64,000 bases of DNA from Acidisphaera sp. S103 (lineage in GTDB: Bacteria > Pseudomonadota > Alphaproteobacteria > Acetobacterales > Acetobacteraceae), in NCBI RefSeq assembly GCF_009765975.1, contig NZ_LMUJ01000108.1:128646-192645 (forward strand), read 5' to 3'. The position numbers were made by a program, and so were the translations under genes. Below the pieces are notes generated by a model. It worked only from the letters and a program-made list of their open reading frames with translations. It did not search any database and was not told where the DNA came from. The stretch's first letter is position 1. Each line of letters begins with the position of its first letter. Positions 6,213 through 63,464 of the stretch are shown one piece after another.

Positions 6213-6860
6213 ATGCTGTTCGATTTCGTCGATATCAAGAACGAGAACATCTACAAGCTGCTGACCTCCACCATCGGCCCCCGTCCCATCGCCTGGGTGA
6301 CGACACAGGACACCGACGGGACCATCAACGCCGCCCCGTTCTCCTTCTTCAACGCGATGTCCGGCAATCCGCCGGTGCTGGCGTTCGGCATCGGCGGAAG
6401 AGGCCCCGGCGACGTCAAGGACACCGGTGGTAACATCCGCCGCACTGGCCAGTTCGTCATCAACCTGGTCAGCTACGAGCTCGCCGAACCGATGAACGTC
6501 ACCGCCATCGACTTCCCCAAGAATGTCGATGAACTGAAGGAAGCCGGCCTGACCACCGCACCGTCGCTGCACGTCAAGCCGCCCCGGATCGCCGAAGCGC
6601 CGGTATCGTTCGAGTGCGAACGCCTCGTCATCGTCGATGTCGGCATCGACCGGGCGGTGGTGCTGGGCAAGGTGCTGGCGATCTACGTGCGGGACGACTG
6701 CGTGCTGGACAAGGACCGCTGCTACATCGACACACCGAAGCTGGATCTGATCGGACGCCTGCACGGCGGCGGCTGGTATGCCAGGGTCACCGACCGCTTC
6801 GAGTTGCCGCGTATCCCCGTCGACGAATGGCCGGCACGCAAAGCAAAGGCAGCCGAATAG
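6213..6860 (+). CDS. flavin reductase family protein (FMN-binding split barrel)
   Basis: 215 residues beginning MLFDFVDIKNENIYKLL. The split-barrel pattern is seen in TIGPRPIAWVTTQD, NAAPFSFFNAMSGNPP and GQFVINLVSYELAEPMN, characteristic of the flavin reductase/DIM6-NTAB family. Members bind FMN and supply reduced flavin to oxygenases or act as stand-alone oxidoreductases; the partner is not evident here. It is divergent from rph and followed by a 250-base gap before a small ORF. Confidence 0.88.
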   Translation: MLFDFVDIKNENIYKLLTSTIGPRPIAWVTTQDTDGTINAAPFSFFNAMSGNPPVLAFGIGGRGPGDVKDTGGNIRRTGQFVINLVSYELAEPMNVTAIDFPKNVDELKEAGLTTAPSLHVKPPRIAEAPVSFECERLVIVDVGIDRAVVLGKVLAIYVRDDCVLDKDRCYIDTPKLDLIGRLHGGGWYARVTDRFELPRIPVDEWPARKAKAAE

Positions 6861-7110
6861 CTCGGCGGTTGGATTTGTTTCATTAACGATTTTTAACTGC
6901 ATCGGCTTACAGGTGGAAATCGCACCATTCGACCCCCAAACGCGGCCTTACGGGCAAGAATGGTGCCGATCCGCCACGCCTCTACCCAAAAACACCTGGC
7001 TCTCGCAAAAAATTGCCCGGTCGAGGGCAATGTTAAGACACAATTCATTTCCACAGTGTTGAAGAGCAAGGGCTAAGCTGCCCTTGTGCTTAATGGGAAT
7101 GGTGACAGCG

Positions 7111-7293
7111 ATGTGCACGGCGACGATCAGCACACTGACCTTGGCGGGATTGCTACAGGACCCGTTGATCCAGATGGTGATGCGCAGCGACAAAGTATCG
7201 GAGTCAGATCATTCTGAATTGCTGCACCGCGTCAAAAATTCACTGACAATGCGTGCGTCCGCCAGACAGCCAGAATTGGAAGCCGCGATCTAA
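7111..7293 (+). CDS. small conserved-looking hypothetical protein
   Basis: 60 residues from the ATG at 7111, chosen because a GGTGA element lies 5 bases upstream; in-frame starts at 7093 and 7099 are possible. The core reads LAGLLQDPLIQMVMRSDKV then SELLHRVKNSL, which resembles short DPLIxxVMxSDxV...L-LLxxV proteins I have seen annotated as hypothetical in Acetobacteraceae. No membrane segment, cofactor motif or known domain is visible. It ends just before a strong hairpin at 7305-7346. Function unknown. Confidence 0.55.
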   Translation: MCTATISTLTLAGLLQDPLIQMVMRSDKVSESDHSELLHRVKNSLTMRASARQPELEAAI

Positions 7294-7300
7294 TTCATGG

Positions 7301-7347
7301 GATCGAAGGGGCCACCGGCCCCTTCGCGGGTGCGGGCAGAGCCCGCC
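7301..7347. terminator. double hairpin between convergent genes, probable bidirectional terminator and dispersed repeat
   Basis: Two adjacent hairpins separate the small plus-strand ORF from the minus-strand molybdoenzyme gene. The first has a perfect 9-bp stem (GAAGGGGCC 7305-7313, GGCCCCTTC 7317-7325). The second has GCGGGC 7332-7337 paired with GCCCGC 7341-7346. The first hairpin with its flanks (GGATC before, GCGGGT after) resembles the hairpin at 48376-48404, so it also looks like a copy of a dispersed element. Confidence 0.65.
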
Positions 7348-7352
7348 CCTCC

Positions 7353-9719: not shown

Positions 9720-9843
9720 GCAGCGGTCCTTGATGTCATTGTGCTGTGCAACATGGCGCCGGTTTCCCGGACCGGCAACCCGGTCTCTGGCCTGTCGCCG
9801 CGGGAAATGGCAGTATGGGAACAACGGATGACGGAGGATTTGG

Positions 9844-10080
9844 ATGCCAACCTATGAATACGAATGCCCCGATTGCGGCCCGTTCAGCGACGTCCGTCCG
9901 ATGGCGGAATTCGACCAACCGCAGCCCTGCCCGGATTGCGAGCAGCCCGCCCCCCGCCTGTTGACGGCACCGGCGCTGGCTGGCAGCGCACAGGAAACAA
10001 CAGCAGGCTCATCGGCCCCGGCCCACGCGGGCGGCTGTGCCTGCTGCATGCCCCGGCGCCTGTCAGCCGAGGCGGTCTAG
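9844..10080 (+). CDS. FmdB-family zinc ribbon protein
   Basis: 78 residues starting MPTYEYECPDCG, the hallmark of the FmdB regulatory-protein family. A zinc ribbon is formed by CPDCG (about 8-12) and CPDCE (about 29-33). The C-terminal half is low in complexity (Ala/Gly/Ser) with GGCACCMP. Family members are small cytosolic proteins first linked to formamidase operons; most have no proven role. It is divergent from the molybdoenzyme subunit with a 124-base gap and is followed after 117 bases by an aldehyde dehydrogenase. Confidence 0.9.
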   Translation: MPTYEYECPDCGPFSDVRPMAEFDQPQPCPDCEQPAPRLLTAPALAGSAQETTAGSSAPAHAGGCACCMPRRLSAEAV

Positions 10081-10197
10081 CACCCCGTCAAACGCCGAGA
10101 AAAAGATCCCGGGCTCTCTCCGTTTCGGAGCCGTGCTCAAAAAACACGTGCCGATCGAACCACCGGCCAATAAACCGAAACGCCTTGGGAGGGGATC

Positions 10198-11640
10198 ATG
10201 GAAATCGATTTCATCATCGACGGCAAAGCGGCCCGCTCCAGCGACGACCGCACATTTGAGCGTTTTGATCCGGTAACGGGCGAATTGGCCACCAGGGGCG
10301 CCGCCGCCAGCCTCACAGATATCGAAACAGTCGTCGCCTCCGCGGCAAAAGCCTTCACCACCTGGTCGGAAACCGGTCCAACCACCCGCCGAACACTGCT
10401 GCTGAAAGCGGCCGACCTGATGGAAAGCCGCACCGCCGACTTCATCCGGCTGATGCTGGCGGAAACCGGCGCCACCGTCCCCTGGGCCGGCTTCAACGTC
10501 CATCTCGCCGCCGGCATCCTGCGCGAAGCCGCCGCCCTGACGACGCAAATCACCGGCGAGGTCATCCCCTCCGACAAACCCGGCATCCTCTCCATGGCCA
10601 TCCGCCAGCCGGTCGGCGTGGTGCTCGGTATGGCGCCCTGGAACGCCCCGGTCATCCTCGGCACACGCGCCGTGGCGGCAGCGCTGGCCTGCGGCAACAC
10701 CGTAATACTGCGCTCGTCGGAGACATGTCCCGCCACGCATCACCTGATCGGCCAAACCCTGAACGATGCTGGCTTCCCGCCCGGCGTCGTCAACGTCATC
10801 TCCAACGCTCCGGCCGACGCACCAGCGATCGTCGAGGCCCTGATCGCCCACAAAGCGATCAAGCGGATCAATTTCACCGGCTCGACCAAGGTCGGCAAGA
10901 TCATCGCGAAACTGGCCGCCGAACATTTGAAACCGGTGCTGTTGGAACTCGGTGGCAAGGCGCCACTGATCGTGCTGGACGACGCCGATCTGGACCAGGC
11001 GGTCGATGCCGCCGCATTCGGCGCGTTCGTGAACCAGGGCCAGATCTGCATGTCCACCGAACGCCTGGTGGTCGACGAAACCGTCGCCGACGCGTTCGTC
11101 GCCAAGCTTGCCGCGAAAGCCTCCAAACTGCCCGCCGGCGATCCCCGCGGCCACGTTGTCCTCGGTTCCATGATCGACCTCCAACCAGCCGAGAAAATGG
11201 ACGCATTGATCGCCGACGCCCTGGCGAAAGGCGCGGTTCTGGTCTGCGGCGGCCACCGGCAGGGCACCATCGTCGAGGCCACGCTGCTGGATCACGTCAC
11301 TCCGGCCATGCGGATCTATCAGGAGGAATCATTCGGCCCCGTGAAGCCGATCGTCCGCGTCAAAGGCGTGGACGAAGCCGTCCAAGTCGCCAACGACACG
11401 GAATACGGTTTATCCGCCGCGGTGTTCGGCAAGGATATCCAGCGCGCGCTCTCGGTCGCCAAGCGGATCGAATCCGGCATCTGCCACATCAACGGACCCA
11501 CAGTCGCCGACGAGGCACAAATCCCATTCGGCGGCATGAAAGCCAGCGGCTACGGCCGGTTCGGCGGCAAGGCGGTCATCGATGAGTTCACCGAACTGCG
11601 ATGGATCACCATCGAAGGCCCCCAACACTACCCGTTCTGA
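10198..11640 (+). CDS. NAD(P)-dependent aldehyde dehydrogenase, salicylaldehyde/vanillin dehydrogenase-like
   Basis: 480 residues. Hallmarks of the ALDH superfamily are present: the APWNAP substrate/cofactor loop, FTGSTKVG, the general base Glu in LELGGKAP, the nucleophilic Cys in NQGQICMST and ESFGPV. The CMSTER context after the Cys and the overall pattern resemble aromatic-aldehyde dehydrogenases (vanillin or salicylaldehyde), but the substrate is not certain. Start at the ATG at 10198 is supported by GGGAGGGG just upstream. It converges with an MFS gene, overlapping its 3' end by 13 bases. Confidence 0.9.
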   Translation: MEIDFIIDGKAARSSDDRTFERFDPVTGELATRGAAASLTDIETVVASAAKAFTTWSETGPTTRRTLLLKAADLMESRTADFIRLMLAETGATVPWAGFNVHLAAGILREAAALTTQITGEVIPSDKPGILSMAIRQPVGVVLGMAPWNAPVILGTRAVAAALACGNTVILRSSETCPATHHLIGQTLNDAGFPPGVVNVISNAPADAPAIVEALIAHKAIKRINFTGSTKVGKIIAKLAAEHLKPVLLELGGKAPLIVLDDADLDQAVDAAAFGAFVNQGQICMSTERLVVDETVADAFVAKLAAKASKLPAGDPRGHVVLGSMIDLQPAEKMDALIADALAKGAVLVCGGHRQGTIVEATLLDHVTPAMRIYQEESFGPVKPIVRVKGVDEAVQVANDTEYGLSAAVFGKDIQRALSVAKRIESGICHINGPTVADEAQIPFGGMKASGYGRFGGKAVIDEFTELRWITIEGPQHYPF

Positions 11641-12818
11641 ACCGAACCCCTTGACTGGCCAAAACCCCACATCAGCAGAATAACCAGCGGCATCACCGCA
11701 CCCATCAGACAAAGCCCGGTCCAGCCGGCGACCGCGAAGCTGCCGCTGGCGATCGCCGAACCGGCCGCCGCGCCAATGAACGCCGAGGTCATGTAAACCG
11801 CCGTTATGCGCGAACGCGCGTGCGGCGCCAGCCGGTAGATCACCGACTGGTGCGTCACCTGAAGCCCCTGTGCGCCGACGTCGAGCAAAAAGACGCCAAC
11901 CCCAACCGCCCAGATCGAAAGACCGCCCGCCGCCAACACCCCCCAGGACAGCAGCAGCACGGCCGCGAACGCACCGGTGGACTTGTTGACATGGCCGCGG
12001 TCGCTCAGCCGTCCAGCCTCATTCGCCGCCACCGCACCGGCGGCCCCTAGCAGACCGAACAGGCCAATCCTCGCCTCGGAATAGTGGTAGGGCGCGCCGC
12101 TCAGCAGGAACGTCAGGCCCGTCCACAGCGTGCTGAAACTGCCCAGTCCGAGCGCCGTGTAGACCGATCGGCGCCGGAGTTCCGGTTCGCTTCTGGCAAG
12201 GTCCAGCAGTGACCATAACAGCCTGCGATAGACCAGGCGGCCCCGTGCGCCTTCCGGCGGGATGGCCACGTGCAACGCCACCAGCAACACGGCGACGGCC
12301 ACCGCGGCGATCAGATACATCGACCGCCAGCCGGCCCAGACCGCCACGAAGCCCGACACCGTGCGCGCCAGCAGAATCCCCAGCAGCAGCCCGGTCATGA
12401 TCTGCCCGATGGTGCGGCCGCGCGTCGCCTCCGGCGCCTTGGACGCCGCATAGGGAATGACCACCATGGCAGCGCTGGACGTGCAACCCGTCACTAGACT
12501 TGCCGCCGCGAAGCTGCCAAAACCGGGACTGACGGCGGCGGCCACCAGGCCAACGACATTAATCACCAGCATCCCCGACAGCAGCCGGCGGCGATCCAGC
12601 ACGTCACCCAGCGGCACCACCAGAAGCAGGCCCAGTGCGTACCCAAGCTGGGTGAACGTGACCAGATAGCCCGCGCTGGTGACGCTGCGGCCAAACGACG
12701 ACGCCACCGCGGCCAGCAGCGGCTGAACGTAGTAGAGATTGGCGACCAGGATGCCGGTCGTCACAGCGAACAGCAACACTCGCCACCGATCGAGCAACCC
12801 CGCCTCGGCGTCAGGCAT
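11628..12818 (-). CDS. MFS transporter (DHA1-like exporter family)
   Basis: 396 residues with 12 predicted membrane segments. LGYALGLLLVVPLGDVLDRRRLL carries the loop 2-3 signature typical of the major facilitator superfamily, and TGCTSSAAMVVIPYAA and RGRTIGQIMTGLLLGI follow the YnfM/AraJ-type pattern. It is likely an inner-membrane proton-coupled efflux or uptake system of unknown substrate. It lies 12 bases downstream of an aldehyde dehydrogenase on the same strand, suggesting that transport and oxidation of one compound are coupled. Its 3' end overlaps the convergent aldehyde dehydrogenase gene by 13 bases. Confidence 0.88.
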   Translation of the reverse strand: MPDAEAGLLDRWRVLLFAVTTGILVANLYYVQPLLAAVASSFGRSVTSAGYLVTFTQLGYALGLLLVVPLGDVLDRRRLLSGMLVINVVGLVAAAVSPGFGSFAAASLVTGCTSSAAMVVIPYAASKAPEATRGRTIGQIMTGLLLGILLARTVSGFVAVWAGWRSMYLIAAVAVAVLLVALHVAIPPEGARGRLVYRRLLWSLLDLARSEPELRRRSVYTALGLGSFSTLWTGLTFLLSGAPYHYSEARIGLFGLLGAAGAVAANEAGRLSDRGHVNKSTGAFAAVLLLSWGVLAAGGLSIWAVGVGVFLLDVGAQGLQVTHQSVIYRLAPHARSRITAVYMTSAFIGAAAGSAIASGSFAVAGWTGLCLMGAVMPLVILLMWGFGQSRGSVQNG

Positions 12819-12830
12819 CGGCCAGGCTTG

Positions 12831-14285
12831 TCAAAGGCCGGTGTTGATCCACACCACCTTCGGTTCGGTGAAATTCTCGATGGCCATATCGCCGTGCTCC
12901 CGGCCGAACCCTGAATCGCGCGACCCGCCCCACGGCAACCGCACATCCGTCGGACCGAACGTATTCACCCACACCGTTCCCGCCTTCAGCTTGCGCACGA
13001 AACGATGCACCCGAACCATATCCCCGCTCCAAACCCCGGCGGCGAGGCTATAGCGCGTCCCGTTGGCGATCCGGATCGCATCGGCATCGTCGCTGAATTT
13101 AATCACCGCCGCGACCGGCCCAAAAATCTCCTCCTGCGAGATGCGCATGTCATGGCCGACATTGGCGAACACGGTCGGACTGACGAAATACCCCTCCTCC
13201 CCGATGCGGCCACCGCCGGTCACCAGGGACGCGCCTTCCTGTCGTCCGACATCGATATAGTCGAGGACGCGGTTCATCTGCACCTCCGACACCAGCGGCC
13301 CCATGGCTGTTCCAGGCTGCCTGGGATCGCCGATACGGATGGCTGCCGCGCGCGCCGCCAGCCGCTCCACGACCTCATCGTAGACCGCTTCATGCACCAG
13401 GATGCGAGACCCGGCGGAACAAACCTGCCCGCTGTTGAAGAAGATTCCGGACCCGGCCGCCTTCACCGCCGCATCCAGATCGGCGTCAGGGAAGATGATG
13501 TTGGCTGACTTGCCACCCAGTTCCAACGTCACGCGCTTCAGGTTCCCAGCCGCGCCCCGCAGGATCTGCCGTCCAACGGCAGGTGAACCGGTGAACGTCA
13601 CCTTGTCCACATCCGGATGATCGACCAACGCGGCACCAGCAACCTTGCCGAACCCGGGAACGACATTAAGAACCCCCGGCGGCAACCCAGCCTGCAACGC
13701 CAGTTCTCCCAGCCGGAGAGCGGTCATCGGCGTGATCTCGGCCGGCTTCAGAACGACGGTGCAGCCGCAAGCCAAGGCCGGCGCGATCTTCCACATGCCG
13801 ATCATCAGTGGGAAATTCCACGGCACGATGGCTCCGACGACCCCAAGCGGCTCCCGCACGGTGTAAGTCAGTGCGTCGCCACGCACGGGAATGACCTGGC
13901 CGTTGATTTTGTCCGCCAGCCCCGCGTAGTAGGCCAGCGTGTCCAGCACCGCCGGCATATCCTGGCGCCGGATCGCCGACACCGGCTTGCCGGAATCGAG
14001 ACTCTCCAATTCTACCAGTTCGTCCTGCGCCCCGCGGATCGCATCAGCGAACTTCAGTAGCAGACGACCGCGATCGGCCGCCCGCATCTGTCCCCACGCG
14101 CCTTCCAGCGCCGCTCGGGATGACCGGACGGCGCGATCCACGTCTTCCGCATCCGCCTCGGCAACGCGCGCGACAACCTGTTCGGTCGCCGGATTGACCG
14201 TGTCGAAATAGCGCCCGGAAGCCGGCGCGACGCGCTGTCCGTCAATCAGCAGATTTTGCTGGCCGTCCAAGAGATCGAAGGGCAT
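12831..14285 (-). CDS. aldehyde dehydrogenase family protein (betaine/aminoaldehyde-type)
   Basis: 484 residues. It has VPWNFPLMIGMWK, FTGSPAVG, the general base in LELGGKSAN, the nucleophile in NSGQVCSAGSR, and EEIFGPV. The C-terminal WVNTFGPTDVRLPWGGSRDSGFGRE resembles ALDH classes that act on betaine aldehyde, gamma-aminobutyraldehyde or phenylacetaldehyde; the exact aldehyde cannot be told. It is cotranscribed with the downstream MFS gene and divergent, over a 165-base gap, from a ModE-like regulator that may control it. Confidence 0.92.
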   Translation of the reverse strand: MPFDLLDGQQNLLIDGQRVAPASGRYFDTVNPATEQVVARVAEADAEDVDRAVRSSRAALEGAWGQMRAADRGRLLLKFADAIRGAQDELVELESLDSGKPVSAIRRQDMPAVLDTLAYYAGLADKINGQVIPVRGDALTYTVREPLGVVGAIVPWNFPLMIGMWKIAPALACGCTVVLKPAEITPMTALRLGELALQAGLPPGVLNVVPGFGKVAGAALVDHPDVDKVTFTGSPAVGRQILRGAAGNLKRVTLELGGKSANIIFPDADLDAAVKAAGSGIFFNSGQVCSAGSRILVHEAVYDEVVERLAARAAAIRIGDPRQPGTAMGPLVSEVQMNRVLDYIDVGRQEGASLVTGGGRIGEEGYFVSPTVFANVGHDMRISQEEIFGPVAAVIKFSDDADAIRIANGTRYSLAAGVWSGDMVRVHRFVRKLKAGTVWVNTFGPTDVRLPWGGSRDSGFGREHGDMAIENFTEPKVVWINTGL

Positions 14286-54010: not shown

Positions 54011-54523
54011 ATGATCAGACTGCTGGGCATCGATCCTGGCCTGCGCTTCACCGGCTGGGGCCTGATCGACGTTGATGGTAACCGCCTGAAGCACGTCGCC
54101 GACGGCGTGATCGCCACCGACAGCACCTGCTCCGTACCCGCCAGGCTGAAGGTCCTGCACGATGCGCTGATGGCATTGCTGACCCTGCACCGCCCCGCCG
54201 AGGCCGCCGTTGAGGAAACCTACGTGAACCGCAACGGCGCAGCGACCCTGAAGCTCGGTTATGCCCGCGGCGTGGCGCTGCTGACCCCGGCCCTCGCCGG
54301 CGTCGCGGTCACCGAGTATGCCGCCAAAACGGTGAAACTGGCGGTCGTCGGCACCGGCGGCGCCGAGAAGGAGCAGGTCGCCATGATGGTGCGCCGGCTT
54401 CTCCCCGGCGCCACGCTGCGCCGAGCCGACGCGTCGGACGCGCTGGCGGTGGCGATCTGCCACGCGCATCACCGGTCCTCCCGGCTCGCCTGGGCCGCCG
54501 CGAAGGTGGCGGCAGGCGATTAA
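54011..54523 (+). CDS. ruvC: Holliday junction endodeoxyribonuclease RuvC
   Basis: 170 residues from the ATG at 54011. The RNase H-like active site is complete: Asp in LLGIDPGLRFTGWG, Glu in AAVEETYVNRNG, and the C-terminal Asp pair in ADASDALAVAICHAHH. RuvC dimers resolve Holliday junctions after RuvAB branch migration. ruvA and ruvB are not downstream; a LysR gene follows on the opposite strand. An AGGA element lies about 14 bases ahead of the start, rather far. Confidence 0.95.
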   Translation: MIRLLGIDPGLRFTGWGLIDVDGNRLKHVADGVIATDSTCSVPARLKVLHDALMALLTLHRPAEAAVEETYVNRNGAATLKLGYARGVALLTPALAGVAVTEYAAKTVKLAVVGTGGAEKEQVAMMVRRLLPGATLRRADASDALAVAICHAHHRSSRLAWAAAKVAAGD

Positions 54524-54581
54524 CGTCCCTTGCTTCAACCCGAGGGCACCGGGCAACAACCCGAAGCAGTCGACCCGCACG

Positions 54582-55529
54582 TTACACCGGAGCCACGGCA
54601 CCATCCGGGTCGCTGCTCGCGATCATCGTGTCCCGGATACTCTCGGCAAACAGCTCCGCCGCGAGCGACAGCGCGGTATCCGCCCGAGCATACAGGCCCA
54701 GCTCGCTATAAATCGGCCCCCGGCCGCGCCGTAGTGGCACGTGGATCAGCCGCCCCGAATCCAGCTCCGTCTCCAACCCGACCCGGGTCATGAACGCCAC
54801 GCCAAGACCACGCAGCGCCAACTCCTTCATCAGCTCGATCGAGCCAGCCTCATACCGCCCGCTGCTGCTCAACCCCGCCTCGAACATGATCGGATGCAAT
54901 TGGTTTCGATTGGCGAAATTCCGCTTCGGCAGCACCGCCGGGAAATCCCGGCAGTCGTTCAGCGTCACCCACGCCTTCGTCGCCAGCGGCGACGCCGGCG
55001 TGACCACCGCGCCCAGCCGATACCGCGCCACCGCGATGCGCCGCAGGTCAGGCCGAGGCCGAACCTCAAAAGCCAGCCCCAGATGCGCGTCACCATTGGC
55101 CACGGCGTTGGGGATTTCCTCGGTCGCCAGGATATCGACCCCGATACTCACCCGAGGCGCACGCAACGCCAGCGCGGCGATCGCGCCCGGGACGATGCGA
55201 TGGCAAAGCCCCTCCAGCGTTACCAGTTCCACCGCCCCAGCCCGCAGCCCATGCAGCGCGTCCAATGCCGATTCCGTCCGTTCGGCATCGCGCAGCACGG
55301 TAATCACGTGATGCGCCAGGATTTCGCCGGCCGCCGTCAGCTTCAGCCCCACCGGCAGGCGGTCGAACAGTGGCGCCCCGATCTCCGCCTCCAGGTTCAG
55401 GATCTGGCGGTTCACCGCCGACGACGCCACGTTCAATCGCCGCGCCGCCGCCCGGATCGACCCCGCTCGGCGCACCGCGTCGAAGTAGTGCAAGGCGGCG
55501 GCATGAATGCGTAGATGCCGGGCTTTCAT
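54582..55529 (-). CDS. LysR family transcriptional regulator
   Basis: 315 residues from the ATG at 55529; a GTG three codons earlier is possible. N-terminal winged helix (about 8-65) with YFDAVRRAGSIRAAARRLNVASSAVNRQI, and a C-terminal effector-binding domain (about 90-295) with GLAFEV and ALRGLGVAFMT. It is divergent from a transporter/dihydroorotate dehydrogenase operon over 119 bases, which makes that operon its probable target and the operon's substrate its likely inducer. Confidence 0.92.
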   Translation of the reverse strand: MKARHLRIHAAALHYFDAVRRAGSIRAAARRLNVASSAVNRQILNLEAEIGAPLFDRLPVGLKLTAAGEILAHHVITVLRDAERTESALDALHGLRAGAVELVTLEGLCHRIVPGAIAALALRAPRVSIGVDILATEEIPNAVANGDAHLGLAFEVRPRPDLRRIAVARYRLGAVVTPASPLATKAWVTLNDCRDFPAVLPKRNFANRNQLHPIMFEAGLSSSGRYEAGSIELMKELALRGLGVAFMTRVGLETELDSGRLIHVPLRRGRGPIYSELGLYARADTALSLAAELFAESIRDTMIASSDPDGAVAPV

Positions 55530-55648
55530 CGGCAACACGACCCTGATGCTGAATCGGCATCACTATGCACGATTTCTTCTGCTTGTTCGAGCAGCTAGAT
55601 AAGGTGCAACGTTTCAACTTCGCACGCGACCATTCCAGGAGAACGACC
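55530..55648. promoter_or_regulatory. divergent promoter region, LysR regulator and orotate-type operon
   Basis: 119 bases between divergent genes. It contains AGGAGA (about 55636-55641) ahead of the TTG start of the transporter. A LysR-type T-N11-A site is expected, but several weak candidates exist and none stands out. Confidence 0.4.
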
Positions 55649-56899
55649 TTGGCGACGTTTCCCGACCACGCACTGCCCGCAACGCTGCCGGGGTCCGACG
55701 ATGGCGTCGTCACGCGCGAGGCGTGGAAGGCACTCGCCGGTTCCGCCATCGGTTACGCGATGGATGGTTTCGACCTGCTGATCCTTGGTTTCATGCTGCG
55801 CCTTATTGGCCCCGCGCTTCATCTGACGACGACCCAGGCTGCCACGCTGGTGACCGCGACGCTGGTGGGCGCGGTGATCGGTGGCATCGGATTCGGGATA
55901 TTGTCCGACCGGATGGGGCGGGTGCGGGTGCTGACCTGGACCATCGTGCTGTTCGCCGTGTTCACCGGGCTTTGCGCGCTGGCGCAGGGCTATTGGGATC
56001 TGCTGCTCTACCGGACGATATCCGGCGTCGGGCTTGGCGGCGAATTCGGTATCGGCATGGCGCTGGTGGCCGAGGCATGGCCCGCATCGAAACGGGCTCG
56101 CGCGTCATCCTATGTCGGGCTTGGCTGGCAAGCCGGCGTCCTGGCTGCGGCGCTGCTGACGCCTATGCTGCTGCCGGTGATCGGCTGGCGTGGGATGTTC
56201 GTGATTGGCCTGTTCCCCGCCATCGCCGCGTATTTCATCCGGAAGGATTTGCACGAGCCGGAGATATTCGTCGAACGCACCGCCAGGGCGCCGGCGCAAT
56301 CGTCACTGCGGCTGCTGGTGGCAGATGCGGAAACGGCGCGGGTCAGCCTGGGGATGATCGTCCTCTGCAGCGTGCAGAACTTTGGCTATTACGGTGTGAT
56401 GATCTGGCTGCCGAGCTATCTGTCGTCGCGGTTCGGCTTCGGACTGACGCAGTCGGCGACCTGGACGGTGGTCACCATCCTCGGCATGGCGGTGGGCATC
56501 TACGGCTTCGGCCACGCAGCGGATCGCCTGGGCCGCAAGCCCGCGTTCATCGGCTGGATGGTGGGCGCAGCCGTCATGGTCGTGGTCTACTCCCGGCTGA
56601 CCGACCCGATGGCGCTGCTTGTCGCAGGCGCCGTGATGGGCTTCTTCGTCAACGGCATGCTGGGTGGTTACGGCGCGCTGATGAGCGAGCTGTATCCCAC
56701 GAGCACCCGCGCCACCGCGCAGAATGTACTGTGGAACATCGGTAGAGCGATCGGCGGATTCGGGCCGGTTGTGGTGGGCGCGATCGCCGGCGCATGGGGA
56801 TTTCAGACCGCGATCGCCCTGCTGGCCGTGCTGTACCTGCTCGATATCGTTGCGGTGTGGCTGCTGATCCCGGAGCGCAAGGGGCAGGAACTGGCATGA
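55649..56899 (+). CDS. MFS transporter (AAHS/sialate-type proton symporter)
   Basis: 416 residues from a TTG at 55649, chosen because AGGAGA lies 7 bases upstream; an in-frame ATG at 55565 has none. Twelve membrane helices; YAMDGFDLLILGFML is the first-helix pattern of aromatic-acid/sialate MFS transporters, with SDRMGRVRVL and RAIGGFGPVVVG later. Likely imports a carboxylate with protons. Its stop overlaps the pyrK-like start (ATGA, 56896-56899), so transport and the downstream enzymes are coexpressed; orotate is a reasonable candidate substrate. Confidence 0.88.
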   Translation: MATFPDHALPATLPGSDDGVVTREAWKALAGSAIGYAMDGFDLLILGFMLRLIGPALHLTTTQAATLVTATLVGAVIGGIGFGILSDRMGRVRVLTWTIVLFAVFTGLCALAQGYWDLLLYRTISGVGLGGEFGIGMALVAEAWPASKRARASSYVGLGWQAGVLAAALLTPMLLPVIGWRGMFVIGLFPAIAAYFIRKDLHEPEIFVERTARAPAQSSLRLLVADAETARVSLGMIVLCSVQNFGYYGVMIWLPSYLSSRFGFGLTQSATWTVVTILGMAVGIYGFGHAADRLGRKPAFIGWMVGAAVMVVVYSRLTDPMALLVAGAVMGFFVNGMLGGYGALMSELYPTSTRATAQNVLWNIGRAIGGFGPVVVGAIAGAWGFQTAIALLAVLYLLDIVAVWLLIPERKGQELA

Positions 56900-57702
56900 A
56901 CTTTTGTCCCAGCGTTGTCCGGGAACGCGCTGAGGTCCTGTCCAACACCCTGGTCAACAGCGAATACCGGCATCTTGTCGCGGCATGCGGTCCCCTCGCC
57001 GCATCCGCCGCACCAGGCCAGTTCTTCCAGCTTCTCTGTCCTGCATCGCCCGGCAACGCGCCGTTCTTTCGCCGCCCCATGAGCCTCTACGGGGCCGATC
57101 CGGCAAAACGCCAGGTGGAATTCCTCTACAAGGTCACCGGCGCCGGCACCCGCGGCCTCGCCGACCTTCATCCCGGCGACCGGCTGGACATGATGGGCCC
57201 GCTCGGGCGTGGCTTCGTGCTGGATCCGGCATGGAAAAGCATCGTCGCGGTCGGCCGAGGCGCCGGACTTGCCACATTGGCGCCATTGGCCCAGGCCGCC
57301 CAGGCGCTGGGGATCGCGGTCACCGCCATCCTGTCCGCGCGGCGGCCGGATCTGGTGGTCTCCGACGCCCTGTTCCGGTCTCGCGGCGCGACGGTCCTGA
57401 CGGTAACCGACACCGAAGGCACCAGCGGTCCCGCCCACGTGGAAGGACTGCTGCGCGGCCTGATCGGACAGGGAAGCTGCGATGCGTTCTTCACCTGCGG
57501 ATCGTCCCGCCTGTTGCGCGTGCAGCAGCGCCTGGCCCGCGAATTCAACCTGCCCGGCAGCGTCGCCATGGAGCAGCAAATGGCCTGCGGCCTGGGCATG
57601 TGCTTCTGCTGCGTCCGCGATTTCAACGTCGGCGGCGAAATCGTCCACAAACGGGTCTGCTGGGACGGACCCGTGTTCGATGTCCTGGAGGCATTGCCAT
57701 GA
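56896..57702 (+). CDS. pyrK: dihydroorotate dehydrogenase electron-transfer subunit PyrK
   Basis: 268 residues from the ATG at 56896. FAD-binding is shown by FFRRPMSLYG (RxxS type), the NAD-binding lobe by VAVGRGAGLATLAPL, and the [2Fe-2S] site by CGLGMCFCC and the later CWDGPVF. PyrK passes electrons from the class 1B PyrD to NAD+. Note GRGAGLA in place of the usual GGGIGxA. It overlaps both neighbours by ATGA, so a 1:1 complex is expected. Confidence 0.91.
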   Translation: MNFCPSVVRERAEVLSNTLVNSEYRHLVAACGPLAASAAPGQFFQLLCPASPGNAPFFRRPMSLYGADPAKRQVEFLYKVTGAGTRGLADLHPGDRLDMMGPLGRGFVLDPAWKSIVAVGRGAGLATLAPLAQAAQALGIAVTAILSARRPDLVVSDALFRSRGATVLTVTDTEGTSGPAHVEGLLRGLIGQGSCDAFFTCGSSRLLRVQQRLAREFNLPGSVAMEQQMACGLGMCFCCVRDFNVGGEIVHKRVCWDGPVFDVLEALP

Positions 57703-58661
57703 TGGACCGTGGCACAACCGACATGGCGGTGACGATCGGCGGCGTCCGGCTGGCCAACCCCGTCATGCCCGCATCCGGCACCTTCGCCGAGGGCCTGTCC
57801 TCGGTCGTTGACCTCAATCGTCTGGGCGCGCTGGTGACCAAGACCATCACGCGCGAACTGCGGACCGGCAATCCCTTGCCCCGCGTTGCCGAAGTGGACA
57901 GCGGTATGCTGAACGCCATCGGCATCCCGTCGAAGGGCGTGCCGTATTTCCTGGAACACACGTTGCCACTGTACCGGCAATGGGTGCCGCCACTGGTCGT
58001 GTCGATCTCGGCCCCGTCCGCCGAACATTTTGCTCATCTGGCGGCCGAGGTCAGTGTGCCGGGTGTTACGGCGATCGAGGCCAACATCTCCTGCCCGAAC
58101 ATCGAGGAAGACGGCAAGGCATTCGCCATGCGGGCAACTTCGACCGAAACCGTGGTGCGGCACTTGCGGGCAGCAACGTCGTTACCGTTGTGGGTGAAAC
58201 TGACCCCGAACACCGGCGACATGGCAGAAGTGGCAAAGGCAGCCGAGGCCGCCGGCGCCGACGCCCTAGTGGTGGCCAACACCATTTTGGCGATGGCCAT
58301 CGACCTGCAAACCTTCAAGCCGCGCCTAGGCAACGTCATGGGCGGCCTGTCGGGACCGGCGATAAAGCCGATCGTCCTTCGCCAGGTCTACCAATGCGCG
58401 CGTGCCGTCCGCCTGCCGGTCATCGGCTGCGGCGGCATTTCCACAGCCGCGGACGCCGCCGAATACATGCTCGCCGGCGCCAGCGCAGTGCAGGTCGGCA
58501 CCGCGACGTTCCTTCACCCCGGCGCCATGATCGATGTGATCGACGGACTGGCCCGCTTCTGCGCGCTGCACGGCATGGCCAGCGTGACCGAACTGGTCGG
58601 CGCGATGAAGCGCGAGGAAGCGGACGAGGACGACGTGACGTGGGCGGAGCCGGTCGCATGA
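57699..58661 (+). CDS. pyrD: dihydroorotate dehydrogenase, class 1B catalytic subunit
   Basis: 320 residues from the ATG at 57699 (57702 also possible). An FMN TIM barrel with NPVMPASGTF, LGALVTKTITRE, MLNAIGIPSKGV, the active-site Cys in EANISCPNIEEDG, VKLTPN, VMGGLSGPAIKPI and GCGGISTAADAAEY. Cys rather than Ser as base marks class 1. It interconverts dihydroorotate and orotate with NAD through PyrK. Co-location with a ureido-acid amidase and a transporter suggests catabolic use in the orotate-reducing direction; the biosynthetic class 2 enzyme would be elsewhere. Confidence 0.92.
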   Translation: MMDRGTTDMAVTIGGVRLANPVMPASGTFAEGLSSVVDLNRLGALVTKTITRELRTGNPLPRVAEVDSGMLNAIGIPSKGVPYFLEHTLPLYRQWVPPLVVSISAPSAEHFAHLAAEVSVPGVTAIEANISCPNIEEDGKAFAMRATSTETVVRHLRAATSLPLWVKLTPNTGDMAEVAKAAEAAGADALVVANTILAMAIDLQTFKPRLGNVMGGLSGPAIKPIVLRQVYQCARAVRLPVIGCGGISTAADAAEYMLAGASAVQVGTATFLHPGAMIDVIDGLARFCALHGMASVTELVGAMKREEADEDDVTWAEPVA

Positions 58662-59899
58662 CATTCGCAACGGAACTGTTTGAGGCGCTGCATGCCTCCG
58701 GATGGGACGGTCAGGGCATCACCCGCGACACCTACGGCGTGGGCGAAAGCGCGGCACTGGACATCATCGAAAGCGCCGCCGGAACGCATGGGCTGGAAAC
58801 CGAACGGGACGCCGCCGCCAACCTTGTGGTCACGCTGCCGGGCAGCGAGCCGGCGTTGCCGTTTCTCGCCTGCGGCTCCCATCTGGATTCGGTGCCGCAA
58901 GGCGGTAATTTCGACGGCGCGGCGGGGGTGATTGCCGGGTTGACGGCGGTGGTGCGGATGCGCGCCGAGGGCATCGTGCCGCGGCGGACAATCCGGGTCT
59001 ACGGCCTGCGCGGCGAGGAAAGTGCCGCCTTCGGCCGGTCGTATATCGGATCTTCGGCATTGTTCGGCGTGCTGCCAGCCGCCGACCTGAACCTGCGGCA
59101 TGCCGTCTCCGGCGACACATTACGCGACCGCATGCGCTCGGTTGGCGCTGATGTTGACCGGATCGAGCGGGGCGAAGTGTTGTTACCGCCCGCGTCCGTG
59201 GCCGCTTGGCTGGAACTGCACATCGAACAAGGACCCGTGCTGGTCGCCCGCGAGATACCGGTCGCGGTCGTGACCGGCATTCGCGGCAATGTCCGACACC
59301 GTACGGTCGAATGCATCGGGGAGGCCGGTCATTCCGGCGCCGTGCCCAGAAGCCTGCGCCACGATACGGTCTTCGCCGTGGCCGAGTTGCTGACACTGCT
59401 CGATCACGCCTGGCAATCGTTCCTGACCTCAGGCAGCGACCTTGTCGTCACCGCCGGAGTCCTGGGCACCGAACCGGCGGAACACGCCATCGCCCGCATC
59501 CCCGGCCGCATGCACTTTTCGTTCGAGGCGCGCAGCGAGTCCCAGGTCACGCTGGACCGCTATTACGCACTGTTCCTGGCCGGATGCCGGCGGATCGAGG
59601 CAGAGCGTGGCGTGCGCTTCGTGCCAGGCCCACCCCTGCACACGGCGCCCGCCGTCATGGACCCAAACTGGGTAGACCGGCTGCGCGACGTGGTGCGACG
59701 CCTCGACCTGTCCGACCAGCCCATGGCCAGCGGCGCCGGCCACGACGCCGCCGTCTTCGCCAACTCGGGTGTCCCGAGCGCTATGATTTTTATCCGAAAC
59801 GAACACGGCTCCCACAATCCATTGGAAGCCATGGACATGAGCGACTTCAACAAAGGTGCCGAAGTGCTGCGAATGGCCCTCATCGAAGGGTGCGCATAA
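58658..59899 (+). CDS. Zn-dependent M20 amidase, N-carbamoyl-L-amino acid/allantoate hydrolase type
   Basis: 413 residues. The bimetal site is read from CGSHLDSVPQGGNFDGAAG, LRGEESAAFG (Glu pair), LELHIEQGPVL, GEAGHSGAVP and the last His in HGSHNPLEAM, with MASGAGHDAA for substrate carboxylate binding. This group hydrolyses ureido compounds (allantoate, N-carbamoyl amino acids, beta-ureidopropionate). Behind PyrK/PyrD, N-carbamoyl-aspartate is the natural guess. ATGA overlap with pyrD at 58658. Confidence 0.91.
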   Translation: MTFATELFEALHASGWDGQGITRDTYGVGESAALDIIESAAGTHGLETERDAAANLVVTLPGSEPALPFLACGSHLDSVPQGGNFDGAAGVIAGLTAVVRMRAEGIVPRRTIRVYGLRGEESAAFGRSYIGSSALFGVLPAADLNLRHAVSGDTLRDRMRSVGADVDRIERGEVLLPPASVAAWLELHIEQGPVLVAREIPVAVVTGIRGNVRHRTVECIGEAGHSGAVPRSLRHDTVFAVAELLTLLDHAWQSFLTSGSDLVVTAGVLGTEPAEHAIARIPGRMHFSFEARSESQVTLDRYYALFLAGCRRIEAERGVRFVPGPPLHTAPAVMDPNWVDRLRDVVRRLDLSDQPMASGAGHDAAVFANSGVPSAMIFIRNEHGSHNPLEAMDMSDFNKGAEVLRMALIEGCA

Positions 59900-59932
59900 G
59901 CGTCAGAATATCGATGGCCAGCACACTCTCAC

Positions 59933-59965
59933 CGTCATGGCCGGGCGCGTCCCGGCCATCTGCGC
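59933..59965. repeat. hairpin repeat, CGTCAT family
   Basis: A perfect 9-bp stem (ATGGCCGGG 59937-59945, CCCGGCCAT 59951-59959, loop CGCGT) follows the amidase gene by 34 bases. The CGTC flank is shared with other copies. This copy separates two genes on the same strand and may end the upstream operon. Confidence 0.75.
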
Positions 59966-60052
59966 ACCGGCAGACGAAGCACGCCGGCCGCGGCTCCACC
60001 TTTCCCCCAATCGGTGATAGACCGGTTGCCCTGTCAGGGGGAACGAACAACC

Positions 60053-61447
60053 ATGTCATTAAGCCGGGACTTCGCGGCATTCGTCGCCAATCTGCGTTAC
60101 GAGGACCTGCCCGCGGCCGTCATTGACCGAGCCAAGGGCGTCATCCTGCAAGGTTTGATCTCGGCGCTGGTGGCACACGACATGCCCGCCAGCCGGCAGG
60201 CATTGGCGTTGATGCAGGACGAAGAAGCCGGCGGCGGCGGCGGCGCGACCGCGTTGTGCAGCGGGGCGAAACTCACCAAGGCCGGCGCGGCCTTCGTCAA
60301 TGCGGAAATGCTGCTGGCCGGCGGCAAATGGGACACGTTCCGCATGCTGACCCATCCCGGAACCGCCATCCTGCCCGCCGCCCTGGTCGCGGCCGAAATG
60401 ACCGGATGTTCGGGGAAACAACTGCTAACCGGCGTTGCCGCGGCCTATGAGGTCATGGAGCGCATGGCGTCCGAATTCATCCCCACTGTGATGTCGCGCG
60501 GCTTCCATGCCGGCCCCGTCTTCGGGATTTTTGGCGCCGCCGTCGCCGCCGCGAAAATCGAGGGCCTGAACGCCGACCAACTGAACAGTGCCATCGCCCA
60601 GTGCGTCAACCTGGCGGCCGGCAACTTGGAAGGTGCTCGCAGCGGCGGACGGTCGTTACGAGAAGGCGGCGCGGTACGCAACGCCCTGCTCGCTGTCGCG
60701 ATGGCTCGACACGGCACACCAGGCGGCGAAACCACCCTGGAAGGCGACGCCGGTTTCTACCACGCCTATACCGGCAACAATCACGGTGACCTGCGCTATA
60801 GTTACACCGGAGACAACCGGACCGATCTGACCAACATAACGAAAGACCTAGGCAAAAACTGGATCTTCCTGGAAACCCTGTACCGCATCTACTCCACCGC
60901 CGGCTTCAACATCGCCCATGTCGACGTCACCGCTGCGCTTTGCGAGCAACACAATCTGACCTATGCCGACATCGACCGTATCGAGGCCGTTGTGAACTGG
61001 TTCGAAACCGAATACCCCAGCCCCGCCTTTCCAACCCCCGGCAGCGACGGCAAGGCACGGGTAGGGGCCACCCAATACTTTACCGCCTACGGTGCCGTCA
61101 CCCGAGGCTACCCACTGTTGCGCGGCGACCGGCCTGGCCCGGGCGAAAGCGACCCACCCGAGGTCCTGGACCTGATGCAACGCGTCACCCTGATCCCCAT
61201 GGTACGGCGCACCTTGTTCGGTCCCCGGATCACCATCTTCACCAAGGACGACCGCACCCTGACCCGCGAAGGAACCGGCCGCGAGTTCATCTGGGATTTC
61301 GAGGAACACACAAGCCGCATGCAACCCGTTCGATCCGGACTGGCGATTTCGCCCTCGCAATATGATGCCCTGGTCGATACCTGCCGAGGATTGGACACAA
61401 TCGAGACCGCCGGGCCAAAGCTGGTTTCGCTAACCGTCCCCGGGTAG
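60053..61447 (+). CDS. MmgE/PrpD family protein
   Basis: 464 residues. The all-helical MmgE/PrpD domain is clear: RAKGVILQGLISAL, FVNAEMLLAGGKWDTFRM, THPGTAILPAALVAAEM, SRGFHAGPVFGIFGAAVAAAKI and a smaller C-terminal alpha/beta domain with ADIDRIEAVVNWFE. The family includes 2-methylcitrate dehydratase and cis-aconitate decarboxylase; the GKWDTFRMLTHPG variant of the usual D(D/T)-x-H segment leaves the substrate open. It is followed after 75 bases by a cupin-like gene. Confidence 0.9.
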   Translation: MSLSRDFAAFVANLRYEDLPAAVIDRAKGVILQGLISALVAHDMPASRQALALMQDEEAGGGGGATALCSGAKLTKAGAAFVNAEMLLAGGKWDTFRMLTHPGTAILPAALVAAEMTGCSGKQLLTGVAAAYEVMERMASEFIPTVMSRGFHAGPVFGIFGAAVAAAKIEGLNADQLNSAIAQCVNLAAGNLEGARSGGRSLREGGAVRNALLAVAMARHGTPGGETTLEGDAGFYHAYTGNNHGDLRYSYTGDNRTDLTNITKDLGKNWIFLETLYRIYSTAGFNIAHVDVTAALCEQHNLTYADIDRIEAVVNWFETEYPSPAFPTPGSDGKARVGATQYFTAYGAVTRGYPLLRGDRPGPGESDPPEVLDLMQRVTLIPMVRRTLFGPRITIFTKDDRTLTREGTGREFIWDFEEHTSRMQPVRSGLAISPSQYDALVDTCRGLDTIETAGPKLVSLTVPG

Positions 61448-61522
61448 CGCCGGTCTTGCCGCGTCATCCACTCGGTAGTAGTGGATTGTCACCCACGATC
61501 ATTGAAAAATAAGAGGGAAGTC

Positions 61523-62110
61523 ATGGCCGAAGACTCGAACCTGCCATTGTTGGATCATGAACTGGCGGATGACGAACTGAATTGGATCAAGGCTGTTCAT
61601 AGGGATTTCACTGCGGCCCGGGCAGGACTCGCCGGCCAGGAAAACGGAACCAACCTCAAGCAAACCCTGCGGGAGGTGGTCGGCCGCAAGGAACACCTGC
61701 TTGCAAACCCCATGGAGCTGTCAGGCGACGGCCCCTGGCGGCTTGGCAAAAATAACCACGATCGCTCGGTCGCCTGTGTGTTCCTGAAGAAAATCGAGCT
61801 GCACAAACACGCAAAAAGCCGGACCGATCAGTTCGCCATGTACGTGGTTGGAGAGGCAGACGCGTTCTCCCTGAACGATAAGTCGCAACCCATTCTGACG
61901 GCCGTGGAATCAGGCAGCCATTTCCACAATTCGCCCGGCGCGCCCCACGCGTTCCTGCCGAAAGTCGGTCAAAAGACCAACGACGACTGGGAAATCGCAT
62001 TCATCGCGATCACGCCACGCAATCTGAAAGAAGACACCCAGAAAGTTTCCGAAGAAACCAAGGCCGCCTACAAACAAGTTGTCGGCTACGACGCTCCGCT
62101 CGGCCTGTAA
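61523..62110 (+). CDS. cupin-fold hypothetical protein
   Basis: 195 residues from the ATG at 61523, with GAGGGAAG upstream. No named family recognised. Residues about 130-155 read SGSHFHNSPGAPHAFLPK, with HxH and a following His typical of a cupin metal site; earlier FLKKIELHKHAKSRTDQFAMYVVGEAD supplies the other beta-barrel motif. N-terminal 90 residues are helical and charged. May be a sensor or dioxygenase-like enzyme acting with the MmgE/PrpD protein. Confidence 0.65.
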   Translation: MAEDSNLPLLDHELADDELNWIKAVHRDFTAARAGLAGQENGTNLKQTLREVVGRKEHLLANPMELSGDGPWRLGKNNHDRSVACVFLKKIELHKHAKSRTDQFAMYVVGEADAFSLNDKSQPILTAVESGSHFHNSPGAPHAFLPKVGQKTNDDWEIAFIAITPRNLKEDTQKVSEETKAAYKQVVGYDAPLGL

Positions 62111-62151
62111 CATCAACCCACCCTAGAACCACCTCCTCAGCCGCACCACCC

Positions 62152-62220
62152 CGCCATACCGACCCTACCCCGTCATACCGACCCTCCCCCGTCATACCGA
62201 CGAAGGTCGGTATCCACGCC
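62152..62220. repeat. hairpin repeat, CGTCAT family, with tandem half-copies
   Basis: A complete copy at 62190-62220 has an 8-bp stem (ATACCGAC 62194-62201, GTCGGTAT 62206-62213, loop GAAG) followed by ATCCACGCC. In front, at 62152-62190, the left half (C-G-[CT]-C-ATACCGACCCT-x-CCC) is present twice in tandem. Between convergent cupin-like and phnM genes. Confidence 0.78.
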
Positions 62221-62327
62221 TTCTGCCGATCGAAACAATGGCACCAATGCCGGGACCTCCTCACTCTCCCGGCCCGATCAAACACCAAGGTCACGCCCCA
62301 GCCCGCGGGGCGTGGCCAACGACGTCT

Positions 62328-63464
62328 CTAAACCGTCAATCGCCGGCTTCCCTCCGCGGTTATAAACGCCACGCGTCCTCCAACAATCGTCGCGACCGCC
62401 CGAGACGTCGCCGGATCGACCACCACCAGATCCGCCCGCTTTCCCGCTTCGATCACACCCCGATCCGTCAGTCCCCCCGCCCGTGCCGGATTGCCCGAGA
62501 TCAACCGCCAGGACTTGGCCAAATCCAGCACCCCACGATCGGCCAGGACGAACGCCGCCCGCATCATCGCGGGATAGTAATAGTCAGACGTCAGAACGGT
62601 ACAGATCCCCGCCTCCGCCAACCTGGCCGCCGAGGCCCATCCAAGATGCGAGCCGCCCCGAACCACATTCGGACACCCCATCACGACGAAATCGCCAGCC
62701 TCGACCGCGGCACGTCCAACTTCCTCCGCCATCGGAAATTCACAAATCGCCGCACCACGCGCCCGATACGCATCCCGAACGGCAATACTGTCATCATCAT
62801 GACTTGCCATCGGCAGCCCAGCCGCACGCGCTGCCGCCGCGATCCTATCGAGCCCCGCCGGAACCGCCTCGGCCCGCGACGCAACCGCATCCGTCATCGC
62901 CCGAAACGCCTCCATCTTCATCCCCGCTCGGCCGCTATACTTGGCGCCCTCCACAGGGTCTTTCAGTTTCTTCAGTATAGATGGCGTGTGATCGTTGAAC
63001 GCCAACAGATGCACCCGCCCCGCCTCGATGTCGGCAACCGCGGTGTCCAGCGCCTCAAGATTGTAAGCCTCCCACCGCAGATGCACCCGCATGTCGCACG
63101 TCCAGGACCCGGCATCCAGCGCGTCCAACAGCGCCTGCCACGCGGTCAGGCTGCGCAGTCCCGGTTCCCAGGACAACGTGACACCATGAAACGCCGTGGT
63201 GATCCCGTTCGCCAGCAACTGCGATTCCGTATCCCGCAACGCCAGGTCAACCGGGAAATCCACCCCAGGCCGGGGCTGAATCTGCCGTTCGAATGCATCC
63301 CCATGCAGATCGACGATGCCAGGTAGCACCAGCAGCCCGGTCGCGTCGAACGACAGCCCACCACCCGAACCACCGATCCGGTCGATACCACCGTCCGCAA
63401 GCGTCAAATCCGTCCGCACCAGCCCGTCGGAGGCCAGCAGCACAGTCCCACCGGTAACGCGCAT
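62328..63464 (-). CDS. phnM: alpha-D-ribose 1-methylphosphonate 5-triphosphate diphosphatase PhnM
   Basis: 378 residues. LPGIVDLHGDAFERQIQPRPGV is the PhnM metal-site signature (HxD variant of the amidohydrolase motif); AFNDHTPSI, MASHDDDSI and VLTSDYYYPAMM complete it. The enzyme removes pyrophosphate from ribosyl phosphonate triphosphate ahead of C-P lyase. It lies 12 bases downstream of the phnF-like regulator on the same strand; other phn genes would be beyond the right edge. Confidence 0.95.
   Translation of the reverse strand: MRVTGGTVLLASDGLVRTDLTLADGGIDRIGGSGGGLSFDATGLLVLPGIVDLHGDAFERQIQPRPGVDFPVDLALRDTESQLLANGITTAFHGVTLSWEPGLRSLTAWQALLDALDAGSWTCDMRVHLRWEAYNLEALDTAVADIEAGRVHLLAFNDHTPSILKKLKDPVEGAKYSGRAGMKMEAFRAMTDAVASRAEAVPAGLDRIAAAARAAGLPMASHDDDSIAVRDAYRARGAAICEFPMAEEVGRAAVEAGDFVVMGCPNVVRGGSHLGWASAARLAEAGICTVLTSDYYYPAMMRAAFVLADRGVLDLAKSWRLISGNPARAGGLTDRGVIEAGKRADLVVVDPATSRAVATIVGGRVAFITAEGSRRLTV

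Follow-up and report, generated by a model that had tools for sequence, protein, structure and literature searches.

The stretch of 64,000 nucleotides of Acidisphaera sp. S103 analysed here (contig NZ_LMUJ01000108.1; hereafter the window) carries a LysR-family regulator gene on the minus strand followed, on the plus strand, by genes for a major facilitator superfamily (MFS) transporter, a PyrK-like electron-transfer subunit, a class 1B-type dihydroorotate dehydrogenase (DHODH) subunit PyrD and an M20-type amidase, and this unit very likely serves as an inducible operon for the reductive catabolism of external orotate. An earlier note on this DNA had proposed an orotate-catabolic operon of this kind, and comparative genomics supports the proposal. 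The note had described four plus-strand genes joined by three ATGA overlaps together with a divergent LysR gene; the genes and their coordinates were all confirmed, and the overlaps, read directly from the sequence, lie at 56896-56899, 57699-57702 and 58658-58661. Support for the catabolic reading comes from a class 2 PyrD to which the window pair is extra, from the dihydroorotase, orotate phosphoribosyltransferase (PRTase) and transporter genes that co-occur with the unit in relatives, from a Bacillota locus of similar content (L091), from a palindrome next to the regulator gene, from the motifs kept in PyrD and from the position of the amidase apart from AllC.

The route that we infer, from its substrate, direction and cofactor to transport, inducer and the use of an unlinked dihydroorotase, would begin with the import of orotate by the MFS protein. 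PyrK would pass electrons from NAD(P)H via FAD and a [2Fe-2S] cluster to the FMN of PyrD, which would reduce orotate to dihydroorotate. A dihydroorotase, here probably one of two encoded elsewhere in the genome, would open the ring to give N-carbamoyl-L-aspartate, and hydrolysis of this compound by the Zn amidase would yield L-aspartate, ammonia and CO2. Expression would be activated by the divergent LysR protein, which would act at a palindromic operator and probably respond to orotate or dihydroorotate.

The chemistry of orotate breakdown has been known since the 1950s, and old reports describe catabolic DHODHs in aerobic bacteria, including an NADP-linked enzyme (EC 1.3.1.15). To our knowledge, there is no sequence or gene for the classical ureidosuccinase (EC 3.5.1.7). 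A broader reading, which is possible and is put forward tentatively, is that the PyrKD clade of the window may be a dedicated catabolic orotate reductase with a changed nucleotide site (Arg for the second Gly of GGGxG and Ser for Gly at positions 147 and 177), possibly using NADPH and a gene candidate for EC 1.3.1.15, that the amidase branch may be a gene candidate for ureidosuccinase, and that the pathway may have arisen by two or more separate assemblies, which drew on different amidase lineages and on dihydroorotases of several families, and may be plasmid-borne, on at least one Klebsiella plasmid among others. The operon gives candidate genes, the last enzyme included, for a pathway known as chemistry. 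It suggests that Proteobacteria and Bacillota alike recruited a reaction of pyrimidine synthesis in reverse, alongside the class 2 enzyme that catalyses it. In that case, the annotation 'dihydroorotate dehydrogenase, pyrimidine nucleotide biosynthetic process' found in such records would mislead for the clade.

Conservation of the unit in relatives

Relatives were collected by a tblastn search of PyrD against plasmids (179 records with a match, ten of which were opened) and by a PyrK-alignment scan of named genomes, of which the best 80 of 578 confirmed loci were kept, so that the census covers near relatives only. A neighbouring gene was counted if it scored at least 55 bits and lay no more than 7 kb from PyrD. 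PyrK, PyrD and the amidase occur together at 54 loci, made up of the window, one genome of the same class, nine plasmids and 43 of the 62 loci L051-L112. Of these 54, 25 have a dihydroorotase-family gene nearby, 35 an orotate PRTase gene and 45 one or the other, while an MFS or TRAP transporter and a LysR or Cro/C1-type regulator are each found near 39 (four examples of the regulator counted as AraC were scanned with Pfam, and all are Cro/C1-type helix-turn-helix proteins). In one of the seven 'multi' dihydroorotase matches (L070), the gene stands beside a second amidase, outside the unit. Among the 20 relatives counted without the amidase, which include two with a shorter amidase-like frame under the threshold (L081 and L088), dihydroorotase is found near three, PRTase near two, either of them near four, a transporter near nine and a regulator near six. 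The 18 loci called here biosynthetic-type, a label given to the last loci of the scan (L113-L130, PyrK at most 35% identical) and not the outcome of a function test, have no amidase and no MFS or TRAP transporter nearby, dihydroorotase in six cases and PRTase in three.

The order LysR-MFS-PyrK-PyrD-amidase recurs on a Roseomonas haemaphysalidis plasmid (L037), where the MFS protein encoded before pyrK is 78% identical to that of the window, and in an Acetobacteraceae metagenome-assembled genome (MAG; L056). In the Bacillota, Alicyclobacillus (L091) has the order MFS-amidase-dihydroorotase-PyrK-PyrD, with a PyrD of the same clade as the window (99* in the tree described below) and an amidase of a separate lineage. 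A second Bacillota locus (L101) likewise combines a PyrKD of this clade with the separate amidase lineage. Judged from these sequences, one PyrKD clade would have been joined to two different amidase lineages.

PyrK and PyrD

The window PyrD passes the curated cut-offs of NF005574 (350 bits, cut-off 269) and TIGR01037 (296 bits, cut-off 270) and keeps GMLN(A/S)IG, NISCPN with its catalytic Cys (NxSCPN) and VKL(T/S)PN, in the forms GMLNAIG and VKLTPN for the first and the last, which we take to be the orotate- and flavin-contacting motifs. Its partner PyrK matches PF10418 (42.8 bits, cut-off 23.9), stays below the cut-offs of all PyrK equivalog models (best 126 against 314), carries the motif RG(V/A)GLAT and has the four [2Fe-2S] cysteines of a class 1B partner, C231, C236, C239 and C255, which are invariant in the 11 sequences aligned. 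These scores bear on the idea that the unit is a uracil- or thymine-reducing pathway of the PreA/PydA kind with its dehydrogenase mislabelled as PyrD. PyrD is homologous to PreA, and some M20-type amidases are N-carbamoyl-beta-alanine amidohydrolases (one, 8c46, is among the amidase matches), but the window PyrD reaches only 152 bits with the PreA model (cut-off 335), PyrK has the [2Fe-2S] domain PF10418 and is not of the PreT type, and no dihydropyrimidinase gene was seen beside the window unit, all of which makes this explanation extremely improbable.

The GGGxG nucleotide-binding motif that is usual in biosynthetic-type PyrK is absent from the window PyrK. Arg at position 121 and Ser at 147 and 177 are found in all 54 amidase-linked members, whereas the biosynthetic type has Gly at these positions in 16, 18 and 17 of 18 sequences, respectively, and the surrounding motif reads (G/A)RG(V/A)GLAT in the clade and GGGIGxAP in the biosynthetic type. 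In PyrD, the loop after GMLN is GIPSKG in the clade as against GLQNPG (Ile in 53 of 54 sequences, Leu in 18 of 18). The nucleotide site of PyrK therefore appears to be altered relative to the biosynthetic type, and the NAD linkage named in the earlier note is presumptive for the window pair. The same division is found in the PyrD tree, which, like the amidase tree below, is a quick tree made without bootstrap: of its 92 rows, the 18 of biosynthetic type are set off by one branch (98*) and 73, of which 54 have the amidase and 19 lack it, by another (99*). L108, a contig from the Bacillota that was counted among the loci lacking the amidase, groups on the biosynthetic side. The window PyrD belongs to a set of nine rows (97*) from Roseomonas and Acetobacteraceae.

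Other dihydroorotate dehydrogenases in the same genomes

A PF01180 search of the genome returned five places, the window PyrD included. One of them (C29) encodes a class 2 PyrD of 354 amino acids (TIGR01036, 361 bits against a cut-off of 200), so the window pair is not the sole pyrD of the genome. The other three are a protein that reaches the cut-off of none of the four models listed (C92), one over the cut-off of a 'dihydroorotate dehydrogenase-like' subfamily (C104) and one below the Pfam cut-off (C110). A class 2 PyrD over the cut-off is also present in each of the 26 genomes with operon relatives that were tested, which were drawn from the 43 amidase-bearing loci among L051-L112 and comprise 25 of isolate type and one MAG (L110). 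The class 1B pair is thus extra in all of these genomes, and it would add an orotate-reducing enzyme to the biosynthetic DHODH if, as we suppose, it acts on orotate.

In many Gram-positive bacteria the class 1B enzyme serves biosynthesis, and the unit could accordingly be seen as a second, NAD-linked route for pyrimidine biosynthesis or salvage, used at low oxygen or for the conversion of external dihydroorotate and orotate to UMP. The PRTase genes near 35 of the 54 loci would agree with this, and salvage of orotate to UMP is mentioned for enterobacteria in a passage of PMC13328217. An amidase that destroys carbamoyl-aspartate would, however, oppose synthesis, class 2 PyrD occurs in 26 of 26 genomes, and the window operon has no PRTase gene, one clear pyrE (106.2 bits, just under the cut-off of 106.8) being located elsewhere in the genome. 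We consider such a route very unlikely as the function of the unit; in the relatives that bear a PRTase gene, salvage may proceed alongside catabolism.

The dihydroorotase step

The earlier note held that only dihydroorotase was missing. This is correct for the window unit, which is one of 29 among the 54 loci with no such gene nearby, and it has to be qualified beyond it, as relatives have a dihydroorotase near the remaining 25 and the Acidisphaera genome itself encodes two elsewhere. Both proteins are over the TIGR00857 cut-off and unlinked to the operon; C113 lies directly 3' of a gene read as pyrB, and C81 corresponds to the PRK09060 equivalog (693 bits over 482). Two lower matches score best to dihydropyrimidinase models, and no TIGR00856-type dihydroorotase was found in this genome. 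Dihydroorotase is reversible, so an unlinked enzyme could serve the pathway. The families found in relatives are diverse, with TIGR00856 in L036, L042, L043 and L056, the PRK09236 equivalog in Pseudomonas (L041 and L074) and the TIGR00857 type in L091, and the dihydroorotases and PRTases scanned there pass at least one curated cut-off.

A PhnM-like amidohydrolase gene at 62328 was considered as the missing dihydroorotase and rejected, both by its scores (424 bits with a PhnM-type model, cut-off 253, and about 35 with dihydroorotase) and by its position near phnF and genes read as phn. This gene (62328-63464) stands next to phnF, and inspection by eye suggests another PhnM-like sequence within a phn cluster just outside the window (L137).

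The amidase and the identity of the substrate

The amidase exceeds the cut-off of the hydantoinase/carbamoylase model TIGR01879 (254 against 204 bits), remains below that of its best NCBIfam model, 'Zn-dependent hydrolase' (403 against 461), and obtains 190 bits with the AllC equivalog TIGR03176, the cut-off of which is 598. Residues H75, D86, E120, E121, H188, H386 and R292 are conserved in all 52 operon amidases compared. In a tree of 66 rows these 52 form one branch (88, not starred) inside a 55-row side (100*), in which the three other rows are a paralogue from the same genome and two amidases beside 5-oxoprolinase genes. E. coli AllC and the Bacillota operon amidases of L091 and L101 lie across the 100* branch from the window amidase, in a tree that carries a long-branch warning for sequences including AllC. 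A grouping with AllC, which would have spoken against the proposal of the earlier note, is not observed, and the family of the window amidase fits the activity proposed for it, that of an N-carbamoyl-aspartate amidohydrolase.

Several observations weigh against orotate catabolism. Neither the window unit nor its immediate surroundings contain a gene for dihydroorotase or orotate PRTase, the two dihydroorotases encoded elsewhere resemble housekeeping enzymes, and no sigma-70-like promoter was found in 54500-62400. Nine of the 54 loci, two of them on contigs shorter than 9 kb, have neither dihydroorotase nor PRTase near PyrD, and PyrKD relatives of the window pair were counted at 20 loci where no such amidase adjoins them. 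The second-best model of the amidase, NF006771, bears the subfamily name 'allantoate amidohydrolase', although its cut-off of 399 bits is not reached (359). The polar residues R209, N211 and R280, which came up when a contact for the second carboxylate of carbamoyl-aspartate was sought, are peculiar to the operon branch, near-invariant in its 52 amidases and absent from the two Bacillota operon amidases; nothing in the sequence fixes N-carbamoyl-aspartate as the substrate. Finally, the nearest non-operon amidases with known surroundings adjoin 5-oxoprolinase genes. This last finding, the breadth of the amidase family and the departures of the clade from near-fixed nucleotide-site positions and from the GLQNPG loop would also be in agreement with an operon degrading another carboxylated N-heterocycle or ureido acid, such as a substituted orotate or the dihydroorotate isomer carboxymethylhydantoin, to which PyrKD and the amidase would have become adapted. 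Against this, dihydroorotase (25 of 54) and orotate PRTase (35 of 54) genes recur beside the same genes, and GMLN, NISCPN and VKL(T/S)PN are the same as in biosynthetic-type PyrD, and a different substrate is therefore regarded as unlikely. Orotate catabolism remains the preferred reading.

The nearest non-operon amidases referred to above (L184, 4977-8787; L185, 564-8445) stand beside the 5-oxoprolinase genes pxpA and pxpB and genes for an Xaa-Pro peptidase and a VOC protein, which possibly represent an unstudied N-carbamoyl or oxoproline pathway.

Organisation and regulation of the unit

The features of the unit are listed in Table 1. The MFS reading frame opens at 55565, and the TTG start is preceded by AGGAG at 55637-55641, which makes this start the likelier one and leaves about 110 bases between the divergent LysR and MFS genes. 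The model nearest to the transporter, TIGR00895, describes aromatic acid/H+ symport, and its cut-off is 419 bits. The region of the hairpin 3' of the amidase folds no better than shuffled sequences (z -0.55), and no T-tailed terminator was found 3' of the amidase in a scan covering 54500-62400.

Table 1. Features of the predicted orotate-catabolic unit, in window coordinates
Feature	Position	Strand	Remarks
LysR-family regulator	54582..55538	-	GTG start, ATG at 55529 possible; PF00126 and PF03466; divergent from operon
Candidate LysR operator TGATGC-TGAATCG-GCATCA, T-N11-A palindrome, TGATGCTGAATCGGCATCA	55544..55562	.	Recurs in relatives
Second palindrome CTGCTTGTTCGAGCAG, candidate activation half-site	55579..55594	.	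Near-copies in L037 and L056
MFS transporter, candidate orotate importer	55649..56899	+	MFS_1 157 bits; TIGR00895 309 bits, below cut-off
PyrK-like FAD/[2Fe-2S] electron-transfer subunit	56896..57702	+	PF10418; four conserved cysteines
Class 1B-type PyrD, proposed orotate-reducing subunit	57699..58661	+	NF005574 and TIGR01037 over cut-off; motifs kept
M20-type Zn amidase, proposed N-carbamoyl-L-aspartate amidohydrolase	58658..59899	+	TIGR01879 over cut-off; conserved residues; operon-amidase branch
GC-rich hairpin 3' of amidase, possible unit end	59937..59959	+	Weak: 9-pair stem, without T run

LysR genes occupy the same place in seven relatives (L037, L038, L051-L054 and L056), their products being 63-68% identical, and these seven, in which a LysR gene was counted near PyrD, were examined for the operator. 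The core GATGC-N7-GCATC is present in exact form between LysR and the operon in five of them (L037, L051, L053, L054 and L056), and the forms in L038 and L052 are imperfect. A T-N11-A palindrome placed between the divergent genes and kept in relatives points to an operon regulated by LysR. The pattern GATGCYGNNNCGGCATC occurs exactly at four places in the genome, one of them in the window, and with two mismatches allowed its count in the window is no more than expected by chance; as the pattern was derived from these same sites, the counts are descriptive. A regulon defined by the other genomic copies was discarded, the remaining three exact places being inside coding frames, as read. The second palindrome is present as the near-copy GCGCTTGTTCGAGCGC in L037 and in imperfect form in L056.

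Relation to known pathways

Clostridium (Zymobacterium) oroticum ferments orotate with a class 1B DHODH, a dihydroorotase and ureidosuccinase. A passage of PMC10395836 places C. oroticum under class 1B. The chemistry proposed for the window unit and the enzyme class at the reducing step are the same, but the clade described here is found mostly in Proteobacteria, with a class 2 PyrD also present where tested, and its genes form one operon with an importer and a regulator. The three-step logic of reducing the ring, opening it and removing the carbamoyl group is shared with the reductive degradation of uracil, which, as outlined in part of PMC7332683, proceeds by PydA or PreAT, dihydropyrimidinase and ureidopropionase; in the window pathway PyrD/PyrK would take the place of PydA/PreAT, dihydroorotase that of dihydropyrimidinase and aspartate that of beta-alanine as the proposed product. 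Biosynthetic PyrDK, the class 1B enzyme of Gram-positive bacteria, has the same subunits, cysteines and active-site motifs, whereas the operon clade is separate in the tree (99*, 98*), differs in the PyrK motif and the PyrD loop and is extra to a class 2 PyrD. PMC4016543 describes two uncharacterised DHODH-like families, X1 and X2, which diverge on the PreA/PydA side and whose gene neighbourhoods suggest purine or pyrimidine catabolism, X1 occurring with an M20 hydrolase and beside ygeW, ygeY and xdh homologues. Judged by that description, the operon clade, which is of 1B type and has PyrK, would stand apart from them. Among the matches listed in searches of open PMC papers, no report of an orotate-catabolic gene cluster was recognised, and 'ureidosuccinase' gave no match there.

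Genomic context and further occurrences

A match to the window PyrK at E 1e-15 or better is found only in this genome among 33 of the genus, and one at 1e-40 or better in 11 of 385 genomes sampled across the class, its own included. RuvC is present in 32 of the 33 genus genomes, in many of them with YebC adjoining. The G+C content is 0.65-0.68 over the operon and 0.56-0.63 in the flanks shown, and the nearest kin of the operon are Acetobacteraceae and Roseomonas. These data may be read, without amounting to proof, as the acquisition of the operon between ruvC and PrpD. The MmgE/PrpD gene (60014) and ORF209 (61481) were rejected as operon members: PrpD orthologues 72-88% identical occur in 16 other genomes of the genus, none of which has PyrK. 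The two genes (60014-62110) also stand side by side in two other genomes of the genus (G023 and G010), and the 209-amino-acid protein has no Pfam or NCBIfam match at E 0.001.

A Klebsiella pneumoniae plasmid (CP120874.1; L043) carries PyrK-PyrD-amidase-dihydroorotase with a divergent MFS gene at 6533-13770. Klebsiella accounts for 57 of the 179 plasmid records with a PyrD match, and this version of the operon has no near match in E. coli genomes. PyrKD relatives without the amidase include L046, L069, L072, L073, L077, L084, L086, L089, L092, L094, L096, L097, L104 and L111; the neighbours of the pair in L046 are cupins, a xanthine-dehydrogenase-like enzyme and an aromatic-ring dioxygenase, which perhaps points to another N-heterocycle pathway.

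A protein of about 105-110 amino acids is encoded near 21 of the 54 loci (for example, L039 12048-12371, L042 14013-14339, L043 13444-13770 and L044 11931-12242) and is absent from the window unit. Five examples had no Pfam match above the family cut-off; the rows of L037 and L038, unlike the other six in a first alignment of this protein, were left out of the reference set. In a phage collection, 23 records (MT839571.1, MT838147.1 and others) encode a DHODH less than 60% identical to the window PyrD (45% in the best listed). Eleven of the 23 are labelled 'Bacteriophage sp.' and the five listed come from human faecal samples; some of these records may be bacterial DNA.

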